Part shown: positions 23,779 to 26,648 of the stretch, in pieces
How the letters are laid out: each line of letters starts with the position of its first letter
Position numbering within the stretch: the first letter of the stretch is position 1
Source of the DNA: Lachnospiraceae bacterium
Lineage (GTDB): Bacteria > Bacillota > Clostridia > Lachnospirales > Lachnospiraceae
Assembly: GCA_017465475.1 (NCBI GenBank)
Contig: JAFTWC010000075.1
Coordinates: 1-52,182 of the forward strand
DNA length: 52,182 nucleotides
Reading direction: 5' to 3'
Translations under genes and position numbers: made by a program
Notes under the pieces: model-generated
What the model was told of the DNA's origin: nothing
The model's input: the letters and a program-made list of their open reading frames with translations, nothing else
Databases searched by the model: none

Positions 23779-23807
23779 TTGACCTTTTCCCCGCAAACTA
23801 ATATAAT
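23779..23807 (+). promoter_or_regulatory. promoter of the GH9 gene
   Basis: TTGACC (23779-23784), a 17-bp spacer and TATAAT (23802-23807), 64 bp before the ATG. Confidence 0.85.
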
Positions 23808-23871
23808 ATATTTAATCTCATTGCAATTCATTTTCTTGCATTTAAGCATACGTATACAAAGGAGGTTTTTT

Positions 23872-25584
23872 ATGAATATTTACGTAAATCAGTTAGGTTA
23901 TCTTCCAAACACTGCAAAACACGCCGTTCTCGCTTGCCCGCCGGAACAAAGTGCAGAACTTTCTGCTGTTTCCGATAAAGCACGAATTTGTAAGGAGGAC
24001 GGCACCTGCCTCTTAGAAAAAGAACTGATTCCCTTCGGACCGGACACCGCTTCCGGCGACTACGTATTCCGTATCGACTTTTCGGAAATAACCGAGTGCG
24101 GCACCTATGTAGTAAAATGGAACAATGAAACTTCCTATCCGTTCCGGATTGCACCGGATTTATATACAAAGCTTAATGTACTTTTATCAAAAGCTTTATA
24201 CTTCCAGCGTTGCGGCATGGAACTGACAGCGCCGTATGCCGGAAAATATGCCCGCAAAACCTGTCATACCGCACCGACCGTTCTTTGGACCGAATACGAG
24301 AAGTTTTTAAACAATGAGTTACCGGAAGATTCCATGCAAAAGTTTGATATCCGGGGCGGTTGGCACGATGCCGGTGACTACGGGCGCTATACCACCGCTG
24401 CCGCTTGTGCCCTGGGACACATCCTTTACGCATATCGCTTTTTCCCGGACGCATTTACCCAATCCCTTAACATTCCGGAAAGCGGAAACGGTATTCCTGA
24501 CATTTTAAACGAGTGTCGCTATGAACTGGACTGGATGCTTCAGATGCAGGCAGAAGACGGCAGCGTATATCACAAACACACCACAAAAAATCACGCAGGA
24601 TTTGTAATGCCTTGTGATGATACCAACCAAATGATTTTGTTGCCGCCTTCCTCTATGGCCGTTGCGGATTTTGTTGCCACCATGGCATTAGCCTCCCGTA
24701 TCTACCGCCCGTTTGATGCAGAATTTGCAGACCGTGCATTGACCGCAGCAAAAAAATCTCAGGCATGGCTTGTTGCCCATCCGGAGTTTTTATTTGAACA
24801 TATCAAAGAATGCGGTACCGGCGGATACGGTGACCGTTCCGATATAGATGAACGTATGTGGGCTGCCATGGAGTTATACCGCACCACCGGAGAAGAACAT
24901 TATTTAGAACTGGCACGAAGCTTTTTCGAGAAACATCCGAACCCGATTCAATACGGTTGGGCCGATATCAGTGGGTTTGCGGGCTGGGCCTTATTAGAAG
25001 ACGAACTGACCCTTGATGCTTCTTTTGTACAGTCCGGTACTCTTACTTCCGCAGAGCAGGACTTCCGTGTCGCCTACAAGGCTCTGCTTCAAAAGGAAGC
25101 AGACCATCTGTTAGAAGTCATGACCTCCTCCGGTTACGGCGTCGCCCTGGAGGAAAAAGAATATTGCTGGGGAAGTAATCTTAGTGTACTGAACCGCGGC
25201 ATGCTGTTCGGTACAACTTACCGTTTGAATCCGAAGCCGGAATACTTTACTGCCGTGGTTCGTCAAATGGATTATCTTCTCGGCATCAATGCCACAGACT
25301 ACAGCTACGTTACCGGCGTGGGTGCGCATGCTTTCTGCAACCCGCATAACCGTATTACCGTAGCGGCTCATTTAGAGGAAGGAGAAACCATTCCGGGCTA
25401 TGTATCCGGCGGAGCCAACGGCACCCGTTGGGTAGACCCGTTAGCAAAAGAACTGATTCCGGAAGGCACTCCGCCGATGAAGTGCTTTGTGGACCGTTGG
25501 GAATGCTACTCTCTGAATGAAATTACGATTTACTGGAACTCCCCGGCCATTTTCTGCGCGGCGTTTTTGGATTGTGTGAAGTAA
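23872..25584 (+). CDS. GH9 beta-glucanase, apparently cytoplasmic
   Basis: Glycoside hydrolase family 9 cleaves beta-1,4-glucans by an inverting mechanism. The 570 residues have an N-terminal Ig-like CelD_N domain (about 1-90, NIYVNQLGYLP) and an (alpha/alpha)6 barrel. DAGD at 166-169 supplies the catalytic base, Glu 550 in SLNEITIYWNSP is the catalytic acid, and CNPHNRIT stands in for the usual PHHR motif. There is no signal peptide, dockerin or carbohydrate-binding module. The ATG at 23872 has AAAGGAGG; the frame stays open to 23779, but that overlaps the promoter. This suggests intracellular cleavage of imported cellodextrins or mixed-linkage oligosaccharides. It is a monocistronic gene. 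Confidence 0.92.
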   Translation: MNIYVNQLGYLPNTAKHAVLACPPEQSAELSAVSDKARICKEDGTCLLEKELIPFGPDTASGDYVFRIDFSEITECGTYVVKWNNETSYPFRIAPDLYTKLNVLLSKALYFQRCGMELTAPYAGKYARKTCHTAPTVLWTEYEKFLNNELPEDSMQKFDIRGGWHDAGDYGRYTTAAACALGHILYAYRFFPDAFTQSLNIPESGNGIPDILNECRYELDWMLQMQAEDGSVYHKHTTKNHAGFVMPCDDTNQMILLPPSSMAVADFVATMALASRIYRPFDAEFADRALTAAKKSQAWLVAHPEFLFEHIKECGTGGYGDRSDIDERMWAAMELYRTTGEEHYLELARSFFEKHPNPIQYGWADISGFAGWALLEDELTLDASFVQSGTLTSAEQDFRVAYKALLQKEADHLLEVMTSSGYGVALEEKEYCWGSNLSVLNRGMLFGTTYRLNPKPEYFTAVVRQMDYLLGINATDYSYVTGVGAHAFCNPHNRITVAAHLEEGETIPGYVSGGANGTRWVDPLAKELIPEGTPPMKCFVDRWECYSLNEITIYWNSPAIFCAAFLDCVK

Positions 25585-25627
25585 ACATAAGCTTCGCTAT
25601 CATTGCAATCGAGAAGTTCCATAAGAA

Positions 25628-25648
25628 AGAGTCCGCTTTGCGGACTCT
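25628..25648 (+). terminator. hairpin after the GH9 gene
   Basis: AGAGTCCGC-TTT-GCGGACTCT: nine perfect pairs and a three-base loop, 43 bp after the GH9 stop. No T-tract follows on the plus strand, so it may stabilise or only weakly terminate the message. Confidence 0.5.
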
Positions 25649-25707
25649 CACGCCGAGCGCAACCGGAAAACTACAGTTACGCCACGTGATTACAACTTTT
25701 TGTAGCT

Positions 25708-26102
25708 TACCATGATAAGAGTGCATAGGCAAATATCTCATGGTACAGAAACAAAACTGAATTTAAAAAATACCATGAGAAAAGTACACGAATAAGAATA
25801 TCAGGGTACAAAAACAAAACTGTTTTTAAAAAATACCATGAGAAGAAAATACGAAGGAATATTTCATGGTATTATCTTACATTATTTCCGTATCCGGTCA
25901 AGAAAATGTGTGATCAACACAAAAAGAAAGCGTATTTTTACCATGAGAAATAACAATCTTAATACATATCATGGCAAAAAGAAAAAGGTGCAATAATTTT
26001 CTTACCATGACAACGTAAAAGAAACCGAAAACTCATGGTAAAAGAAAAAAGAGGTATAAATAATTACCATGAGGTTACCCCAAAACAAATATCTTCATGG
26101 CA
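25708..26102. repeat. array of six TACCATGA-N22-TCATGGTA dyad units
   Basis: Six inverted pairs of an 8-bp box occupy this gene-free stretch. Left boxes (TACCATGA) start at 25708, 25771, 25834, 25939, 26003 and 26065. Right boxes start at 25738, 25801, 25864, 25969, 26033 and 26095. The start-to-start distance is 30 bp in all six. All left boxes are exact; right boxes are exact in units 1, 3 and 5, TCAGGGTA in unit 2 and TCATGGCA in units 4 and 6. Interiors are 22 bp and differ in sequence; linkers are 25, 25, 67, 26 and 24 bp and A-rich. The neighbouring genes converge on it, so it is not an ordinary promoter operator. Function unknown. The whole gap 25585-26183 contains no credible gene; apart from the array it holds the hairpins at 25628 and 26129. 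Confidence 0.93.
25742..25867. repeat. 63-bp tandem duplication inside the dyad array
   Basis: 25742-25804 and 25805-25867 align without gaps at about 50 of 63 positions. Each copy comprises the linker (GGTACA, then a CAAAACTG-containing A-rich stretch) and most of a dyad unit. Linkers 1 and 2 match at 22 of 25 bases, whereas the interiors of units 2 and 3 have diverged more than the boxes. Confidence 0.75.
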
Positions 26103-26128
26103 ATTCTAATACCTATTCAGCAAAACAA

Positions 26129-26171
26129 GAACCCCTTGTATCGCCACCATTTATGTCGACACAAGGGGTTC
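26129..26171 (-). terminator. terminator after the GNAT gene
   Basis: GAACCCCTTGT (26129-26139) pairs fully with ACAAGGGGTTC (26161-26171). TTGTTTTG follows on the minus strand, just beyond the GNAT stop. The loop is 21 nt. Confidence 0.7.
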
Positions 26172-26183
26172 CCATTTCATACA

Positions 26184-26648
26184 TTATCTTTTATACTTAT
26201 AATTCCATGCATCCCCGTCCGGATGCTCGGACTCAAACTGAAATCCCGCCTTTTCAAAAGCTTTCTGTGAAGCAACATTATTTGGATATATTACCGCACG
26301 CGCCTCGAAAATTTCCCTCTTCAAAATCTTTTTTGCTTCCAGCAGCACTTCAGCAAGCGCAGACGGCCCGATGCCTTTTCCTCTATAATCAGGAGAAATG
26401 ATATACTCCGATACAGTAAAAGCATTCTCCCACAAAGCAATCACCAAAACACCCACCGGAATATCCTCTTGAAGAATGATTTTTGCCCAGAAATTCTCTC
26501 CCAACGTCGTATCCGGTTCGTTTACCCAATAATTGTAGTACCCCTCAAATCCGTCATCGCACCCGGTGAATTTCTTTGCTTCCTCATCCAACCAAGTCTC
26601 TACTACGTCTTTGTATGTAGCGGAATAATCGTCCCAAGTGAACTTCAT
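26184..26648 (-). CDS. GNAT-family N-acetyltransferase
   Basis: A 154-residue single GNAT domain. Motif A appears as VSEYIISPDYRGKGIGPSAL (acetyl-CoA pyrophosphate loop YRGKGIG), and motif B as ARAVIYPNNVASQKAFEKAGF. The acceptor is unknown. SD GGGAG lies 8-9 nt before the ATG. It ends 39 bp before argC, which is upstream in the same direction, so it may be the second gene of the argC transcript. Confidence 0.85.
   Translation of the reverse strand: MKFTWDDYSATYKDVVETWLDEEAKKFTGCDDGFEGYYNYWVNEPDTTLGENFWAKIILQEDIPVGVLVIALWENAFTVSEYIISPDYRGKGIGPSALAEVLLEAKKILKREIFEARAVIYPNNVASQKAFEKAGFQFESEHPDGDAWNYKYKR

Follow-up and report, generated by a model that had tools for sequence, protein, structure and literature searches.

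Helically phased arrays of alternating TACCAT boxes at many loci in a genus of Lachnospiraceae

Between two genes of the window, the whole stretch of 52,182 nucleotides of Lachnospiraceae DNA analysed here, lies a row of short inverted boxes (25708-26102, Table 1), and the question raised by this locus is what such a row is and what could read it. The first-pass annotation had described twelve boxes forming six TACCATGA-N22-TCATGGTA pairs, and all twelve are found at their places. The start-to-start distance is 30 bp in 6/6 pairs, the linkers from pair to pair measure 25, 25, 67, 26 and 24 bp, and nine of the twelve boxes are exact while the other three carry one mismatch. With up to one mismatch per box, the whole window contains six pairs at spacing 30, and none when the other spacings between 15 and 59 are tried. 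Of 20 mononucleotide-shuffled windows, 19 gave no pair and one gave a single pair, and the exact pair pattern, which occurs three times in the window, was absent from 100 dinucleotide shuffles. The 22-bp interiors do share little sequence, as had been noted: their mean identity is 0.367 against 0.340 after shuffling, a value reached by 244 of 2000 shuffles. The original observation of an array is correct, and the array is part of something larger than first described.

Table 1. Positions of the boxes, the central gap and the flanking genes in the window.
Feature	Sequence	Position	Strand	Remark
Flanking gene, glycosyl hydrolase family 9 (GH9)		23779-25584	+	context of window array
Box F1	TACCATGA	25708-25715	+	exact
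Box R1	TCATGGTA	25738-25745	-	exact
Box F2	TACCATGA	25771-25778	+	exact
Box R2	TCAGGGTA	25801-25808	-	1 mismatch
Box F3	TACCATGA	25834-25841	+	exact
Box R3	TCATGGTA	25864-25871	-	exact
Central gap, 67 bp		25872-25938		array midpoint; 73 bp core to core, about 7 helical turns
Box F4	TACCATGA	25939-25946	+	exact
Box R4	TCATGGCA	25969-25976	-	1 mismatch
Box F5	TACCATGA	26003-26010	+	exact
Box R5	TCATGGTA	26033-26040	-	exact
Box F6	TACCATGA	26065-26072	+	exact
Box R6	TCATGGCA	26095-26102	-	1 mismatch
Flanking gene, GNAT acetyltransferase		26184-26648	-	context of window array

The GH9 and GNAT genes converge on the array, as the first-pass annotation had stated. Its further claim that both have their own terminators was upheld in part: an 18-nt inverted repeat is present at 26129-26171, but a terminator scan of 25500-26300 under strict settings came out empty. 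In the other nine genomes of the genus, the GNAT gene has hits of 29-34% identity in seven and none in two (G003 and G006), so that the window locus stays outside the interspecies comparisons given below. Rfam, applied to the window at gathering thresholds, reported two tRNAs only and no match for the array. The two tRNA genes lie at the left end of the window on the minus strand (143-231 and 298-383).

The boxes of the window belong to a family whose universal core is the 6-mer TACCAT, with ATGGTA as its complement, the two orientations alternating. In class A the core is followed by GA, in class B mostly by TG. Of the 8-bp box described earlier, the 6-bp core is therefore general, whereas the final GA is a class-specific tail outside the universal core. 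In two mixed arrays, L018 (2046-2386) and L094 (2072-2410), most forward boxes have TG, whereas the reverse boxes have GA, a pattern that an alternation of two paralogous readers might produce.

In the source genome of the window (G000; 3.07 Mb, 81 contigs, 88.8% complete), the exact class-A pair occurs 30 times as compared with 0 for a backwards control. All 45 pairs that lie within two mismatches of the class-A pattern at N22 (control 6) are inside arrays. The core-only pattern revealed at least 14 arrays in this genome, the window array included, with 172 boxes. The element had been proposed to be distinct and conserved, and both the pattern and its spacing are indeed kept in close relatives. 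The core pattern is present in six of the ten genomes of the genus and the exact class-A pair in three, while the core-pattern search found no arrays in G002 (72% complete), G005 (90%), G006 (86%) and G009 (87%). The array set comprises 37 arrays and 395 boxes, 349 of them with an exact core. Each array has 3 to 18 boxes, and the full ones mostly 10-18. The counts per genome are all lower bounds: at least 14 in G000, at least 11 in G003, at least 6 in G007 and at least 2 in each of G001, G004 and G008. Both classes are represented in G000 and G003. Array L104 of G008 is nearly a copy of L098 of G007, and the neighbour protein of these two arrays gave weak coiled-coil matches only. In G000 (C13, C17, C37 and C48), G003 (C25), G001 (C8) and G008 (C33 and C73), a contig end is only some hundred bases away from an array. 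This suggests that assemblies are interrupted by arrays or by what adjoins them, and that the array counts are too low. The array flanks, 133,358 bp in all, contained no chain of three or more boxes.

Beyond the genus, a class-A F-R-F pattern was compared with GTDB genome contigs, from which the source genome is possibly absent. It matched 14 stretches, all from Lachnospiraceae. Array boxes were seen in ten stretches from RGIG5355 (sheep colon), two from RGIG7215 (water buffalo cecum) and one from SIG307; relatives of the array-bearing genus are known from ruminant guts. A further stretch, L039 from RGIG3232, has no chain of boxes and was rejected as a partial or chance match. Exact class A was found in one of 397 genomes of a family sample, namely the source genome, and the core pattern in three of 396, two of them in this genus; both the family and the GTDB samples hold few genomes of the genus, and genera with a different core would escape these searches. 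The third genome, G256, lies outside the genus and was rejected as a carrier, its single triple being located within a 603-codon open frame. In the core-pattern searches of the genus and of the family sample the backwards control is uninformative, since the reversed pattern is almost or fully identical to the original. No description of such arrays was found in the titles and opening abstract lines of those open-licence papers that were listed as matches.

The geometry of the arrays is more regular than the window alone would indicate. When cores were chained with 30-33 bp permitted between them, the core-to-core distance was 31 or 32 bp in 335 of 343 intervals, that is, in 189/193 F-to-R and 146/150 R-to-F intervals. 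With no distance limit, 260 of 309 steps from one exact core to the next measure 31 or 32 bp (36 arrays, L104 left out). The remaining distances are 30, 43, 62-64, 73-75, 84-85, 94 and 127 bp, with two exceptions only, 20 and 22. Taking 10.5 bp per turn, the core distances apart from these two deviate by no more than about 1.5 bp from 3, 4, 6, 7, 8, 9 and 12 whole turns. For 15 gaps, which are not all independent and were taken without a shuffle control, the phase vector is 0.952 at a period of 10.5 bp and 0.869-0.941 at 10.0, 10.25, 10.75 and 11.0 bp. In the window, the cores are 32 bp apart within all six pairs and 31, 31, 73, 32 and 30 bp apart between pairs. The earlier view that the conserved unit is box-N22-box stands for the interiors, which are fixed in length; it does not stand for the linkers, which are equally fixed, with 31 or 32 bp between the 6-bp cores.

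The commonest exact class-A layout consists of three pairs, a gap and three pairs (29, 33, 30, 33, 30, [76], 30, 33, 30, 33 and 29 bp, start to start). Four arrays show it, namely L006, L010 and the orthologues L007 and L026. In the class-B array L091 (2084-2497 in G000 C48), the first units are nearly identical 63-bp repeats, which, judged from their likeness, are a recent amplification by unit duplication; the window array has diverged. At the ilvE locus, the number of boxes varies by whole pairs, with 18 in L013 and 14 in both L025 and L106. Arrays thus grow by whole units (L091; L013 as compared with L025 and L106), and part of their regularity may be inherited.

The regular boxes could also be a row of RNA hairpins in a 3'UTR or a small RNA, each with an 8-bp stem and a 22-nt loop, and this was one of the three possibilities raised in the first-pass annotation. 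Single units of the window fold better than shuffles (z from -2.3 to -4.3 in five of six, -1.1 in one) and RNA folding of the whole window array gave a z of -5.25, a behaviour that is expected anyway since the boxes are inverted repeats. The tail positions are pairable in 163/193 and 144/193 F-R pairs, because class-A and class-B tails are both self-complementary between the boxes of a pair, and a symmetric protein site would give the same result as a hairpin. Moreover, the spacers are strongly purine-rich on the coding strand of the neighbours at many tandem loci, which could mean transcription or stem from a strand bias of replication; exceptions include padR, pheT and L098. Their purine content on that strand is about 0.69-0.78, for example, in L005, L007, L008, L013, L025, L103 and L106. 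However, when the core changes in the 193 F-R pairs were followed, 24 break the stem, 14 leave a G-U and 3 are compensated. In the mixed arrays L018 and L094, TG-type forward boxes are paired with GA-type reverse boxes, whose tails are non-complementary, and Rfam offered nothing but the tRNAs. The R-to-F linkers and the gaps are in helical phase, which hairpins do not need. The core test, the constraint on linkers that are fixed like the interiors and the near-whole-turn gaps favour a lattice at the level of DNA over hairpins, and a transcribed hairpin row seems very unlikely.

In a profile of 105 class-A units, conservation is limited to the box and weak A/W positions, and no tag is seen. Beyond the box, A is found at the second next base and A/T at the third, so that the half-site extends inward. 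The spacers carry a 10.5-bp W component that exceeds 1000 of 1000 shuffles for the FR31, FR32 and RF31 intervals and 986 of 1000 for RF32 (L104 left out), with the W phase of the linkers opposite to that of the interiors. W is present at the dyad in 95% of the 31-bp F-R intervals and in 78% of the 32-bp ones, while the centre of the R-F linkers has about 50%. The base before the box is informative as well, as counted in 33 of the 37 arrays (L035, L040, L096 and L104 left out). In gapped class-A arrays, G occupies this position in 37 of 66 boxes with the 5' side toward the array centre, as compared with 4 of 64 with that side outward; the figures are 30/44 and 11/54 in ungapped class-A arrays, and 5/10 and 0/10 in the two mixed arrays. 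Polarity is weak in class B, with 16/61 toward the centre and 14/69 outward. Class-A units therefore tend to point opposite ways in the two halves, which makes the whole array a dyad, and in gapped class-A arrays the reversal tends to fall at the central gap.

A two-part layout is also known from a centromere-like site, parC of ParMRC systems, which consists of direct, closely spaced repeats in two groups around a gap; parS of ParABS systems, another centromere-like site, is a single palindrome. The present arrays would share with such sites a multi-site nucleoprotein platform, and with parC the two repeat groups around a gap. They differ in that their boxes are inverted, follow one another about every 31.5 bp and are present at many sites of the chromosome.

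Orthologous class-A arrays could be aligned at rplA (three species), pheT (two species), padR (two species) and ilvE (three species). Common boxes are 0.92-0.99 identical, spacers 0.58-0.64 and flanks 0.39-0.78, with a separate tally for one-sided columns, which belong to a box in just one of the two species (8, 8 and 10 of them in three out of eight class-A comparisons). For the mixed arrays L018 and L094, whose flanking genes are unmatched, the values are 0.97 for boxes and 0.60 for spacers. Conservation is lower for the class-B arrays at ilvE, with identities of 0.75-0.93 for boxes and 0.37-0.70 for spacers and with 24-58 one-sided columns, and L089 and L093 gave 0.84 for boxes and 0.43 for spacers. 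Box identity is somewhat inflated by the fact that boxes are defined by their likeness to the core; judging from these alignments, that definition does not explain why almost all class-A boxes and the spacing are retained. Of 93 orthologous intervals, taken from comparisons that share arrays, 73 have the same length in both species, while the length differs by 1 in 18, by 2 in one and by 20 in one, the last being a gap that changed by about two turns. Summed over nine pairs, the arrays show 28 gap openings (3396 aligned columns) and the flanks 62 (3186 columns). Boxes and phase are thus kept while the spacers diverge, which suggests selection on the sites and not recent mobility. CRISPR arrays, which are built of direct repeats of more than 20 bp with unrelated spacers, are similar in combining constant short words with variable spacers, but here the boxes are inverted and 6-8 bp long, and orthologous spacers align and drift by substitution.

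Several array positions are shared between species. The ilvE locus is adjoined by an array in six species, of class A in three and of class B in the other three. The ilvE locus of G002, G005, G006 and G009 has no chain of core boxes, and a de novo search for a lattice of any 6-mer in the ilvE region of these four genomes and of G064 gave at most four boxes, with mismatches. The gene rplA, for ribosomal protein L1, is adjoined by an array in four species (L007, L019, L026 and L040). A 164-aa gene bounds the array on the side away from rplA in L019 and L026. In L019 this gene encodes ribosomal protein L10 and is co-oriented, so that the array is inside a ribosomal-protein gene cluster. In G004 (C19; L048 and L052), in-frame stops interrupt the 268-aa gene next to the ilvE array, and the array persists with a few altered boxes.

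The convergent setting seen in the window is not general. Convergent genes also flank L092, L094 and L096, whereas the genes are tandem at ilvE, rplA, pheT and padR and divergent at L099. These gene contexts were obtained by longest-ORF heuristics, in which some short ORFs are spurious, and the extragenic status of the arrays rests on these calls. Besides ilvE, the array neighbours include pheT, purD, PurL, pyruvate:ferredoxin oxidoreductase, HemW, [FeFe] hydrogenase, TrpB, type III glutamine synthetase, a DeoR-type regulator, an ECF sigma factor and PadR. BlaI- and AraC-type regulators, matched at family level only, are further neighbours. In the scan that gave these regulators and PurL to TrpB, partial genes score under full-length cut-offs. 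No common function was seen among the neighbours scanned.

Inverted paired boxes around a central gap resemble the layouts of attachment sites or transposon ends. On this likeness, the arrays might be a recombination or integration platform, as the first-pass annotation had suggested, or the ends of a mobile element. No sign of this was found. Several of the array positions are shared between species at housekeeping loci, no recombinase is among the 29 distinct flanking proteins scanned, and scans of viral contigs gave no array, with 0 matches to class A and 12 single matches to the core, the longest chain having four boxes, one of them mismatched. We consider this origin extremely improbable.

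A wrapping regulator of the Lrp/AsnC type deserves more attention. The arrays would then be operators, wrapped by octamers that tune the neighbouring genes. In the cited passages, Lrp-type sites lie two or three helical turns apart on one face and are wrapped (PMC2995911), the six Lrp sites of pap form two sets of three (PMC11316696; PMC10073500), and the Lrp/AsnC site is a semipalindrome of about 15 bp bound by a dimer (PMC10201364). The present arrays agree with these sites in several ways (PMC2995911, PMC11316696): whole-turn spacing on one face is common to both, the three-turn distance being found here in the 335 of 343 intervals given above, both have two half-arrays around a gap, and cooperative wrapping would be a further likeness. 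Some arrays also lie closely upstream of genes, at 1, 41 and 51 bp from the start of a 268-aa gene family (L013, L025 and L103) and at 81-94 bp from padR, with gene starts set heuristically. On the other hand, many arrays lie downstream of a gene, and the scanned neighbours have no function in common for such a regulator to tune. The half-site TACCAT with its GA or TG tail is not palindromic. The arrays mostly have 10-18 boxes, strictly alternating and at many loci. A gene with an AsnC domain is present in one copy in eight of the ten genus genomes, including the array-free G005, G006 and G009, and is missing from the array-bearing G001 (82% complete) and from the array-free G002 (72%). An Lrp/AsnC-like regulator is thus an unlikely reader.

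The layout can also be compared with that of dispersed repeats. BIMEs are described in the cited text as extragenic clusters of alternating, regularly spaced elements for which a role in chromosome organisation has been proposed (PMC2817692), and REPs as palindromes of 20-40 bp, most with a GTAG or CGTC tag, which occur mainly between unidirectional and convergent genes (PMC3733652). The present arrays, if of this kind, would have been spread by a transposase or by copying and would have a secondary role such as gyrase binding. They agree with the description in being dispersed extragenic units of alternating orientation and regular spacing, and most seem to lie between unidirectional or convergent genes, like REPs. 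Units also seem to have been copied between loci, as L101 (2202-2331) and L102 (2049-2398), on different contigs of G007 (C60 and C62), are 83.5% identical over 170 bp. Unlike REPs as so described, however, they conserve only arms of 6-8 bp, and the 105 class-A units showed neither a 20-40 bp palindrome nor a GTAG or CGTC tag. Orthologues keep boxes and phase in diverged spacers, and the three-turn spacing is locked in both kinds of interval. In G000, with its 172 boxes in at least 14 arrays, none of the 45 class-A-type pairs is solitary. A BIME/REP-like origin therefore appears improbable. The layout of the arrays resembles both BIMEs and phased Lrp sites, yet a tested defining feature of each is lacking, and we describe them as helically phased, dispersed site arrays that are placed under neither.

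Of the three possibilities in the first-pass annotation, a multivalent binding site fits best, with its same-face spacing, near-whole-turn gaps and conserved boxes in drifting spacers, and it is rather likely that each array is a cooperative protein-binding lattice at the level of DNA, on one face of the helix and dyad-symmetric in class A. A putative protein, specific to the genus, would read a half-site of about 12 bp, K-TACCAT-(GA or TG)-n-A-W, and its copies would bind in alternating orientation every three helical turns. All copies would then be on one DNA face and able to touch their neighbours on both sides, and these contacts would form a cooperative wrapped or filamentous complex. Alternate subunits would oppose one another over the AT-rich dyad and contact the following pair over the linker, and the class-A complex would be dyad-symmetric about the array centre. 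Classes A and B may be read by two related proteins, that is, by paralogues. Several observations weigh against the lattice reading: growth by whole units may account for part of the regularity, tail complementarity is equally expected of hairpins, the purine bias could point to transcription, polarity is weak in class B, the W component is weaker in RF32 and of opposite phase in linkers and interiors, class-B orthologues are less conserved, and four genomes of the genus show no arrays.

What is plainly visible in the sequence is the box, its alternation, the spacing, the near-whole-turn gaps, the conservation, the shared loci and the two tail classes. From these features, a protein as reader, its cooperative binding, paralogues for the two classes and an architectural role are inferred. 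The arrays are probably the footprint of an undescribed DNA-binding protein. As the positions are fixed and the neighbours have no common function, chromosome architecture is our guess for the role: the arrays would mark or organise intergenic chromosome positions rather than switch one promoter. The genomes without arrays suggest that the whole system can be lost. More speculatively, and less likely than not, two paralogous proteins, one for TACCAT-GA and one for TACCAT-TG, might co-assemble on mixed arrays and form three-turn filaments with dyad symmetry, at fixed positions between genes that number a dozen or more in each chromosome, as a genus-specific architecture system that is gained or lost as a whole in each lineage. 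Such gain or loss, if true, would explain the four of ten species that have no arrays.

Phased multi-site arrays are usually met promoter by promoter. Here one geometry is found at many loci and is kept across species, with internal controls in the form of two box classes, mixed arrays, near-whole-turn gaps of various lengths and array-free sister species. The contrast between six array-bearing and four array-free genomes makes the reader protein findable by comparison, and half-turn insertions offer a test of the lattice geometry. Should their role prove architectural, these arrays would represent a new way for bacteria to mark positions on their chromosome.
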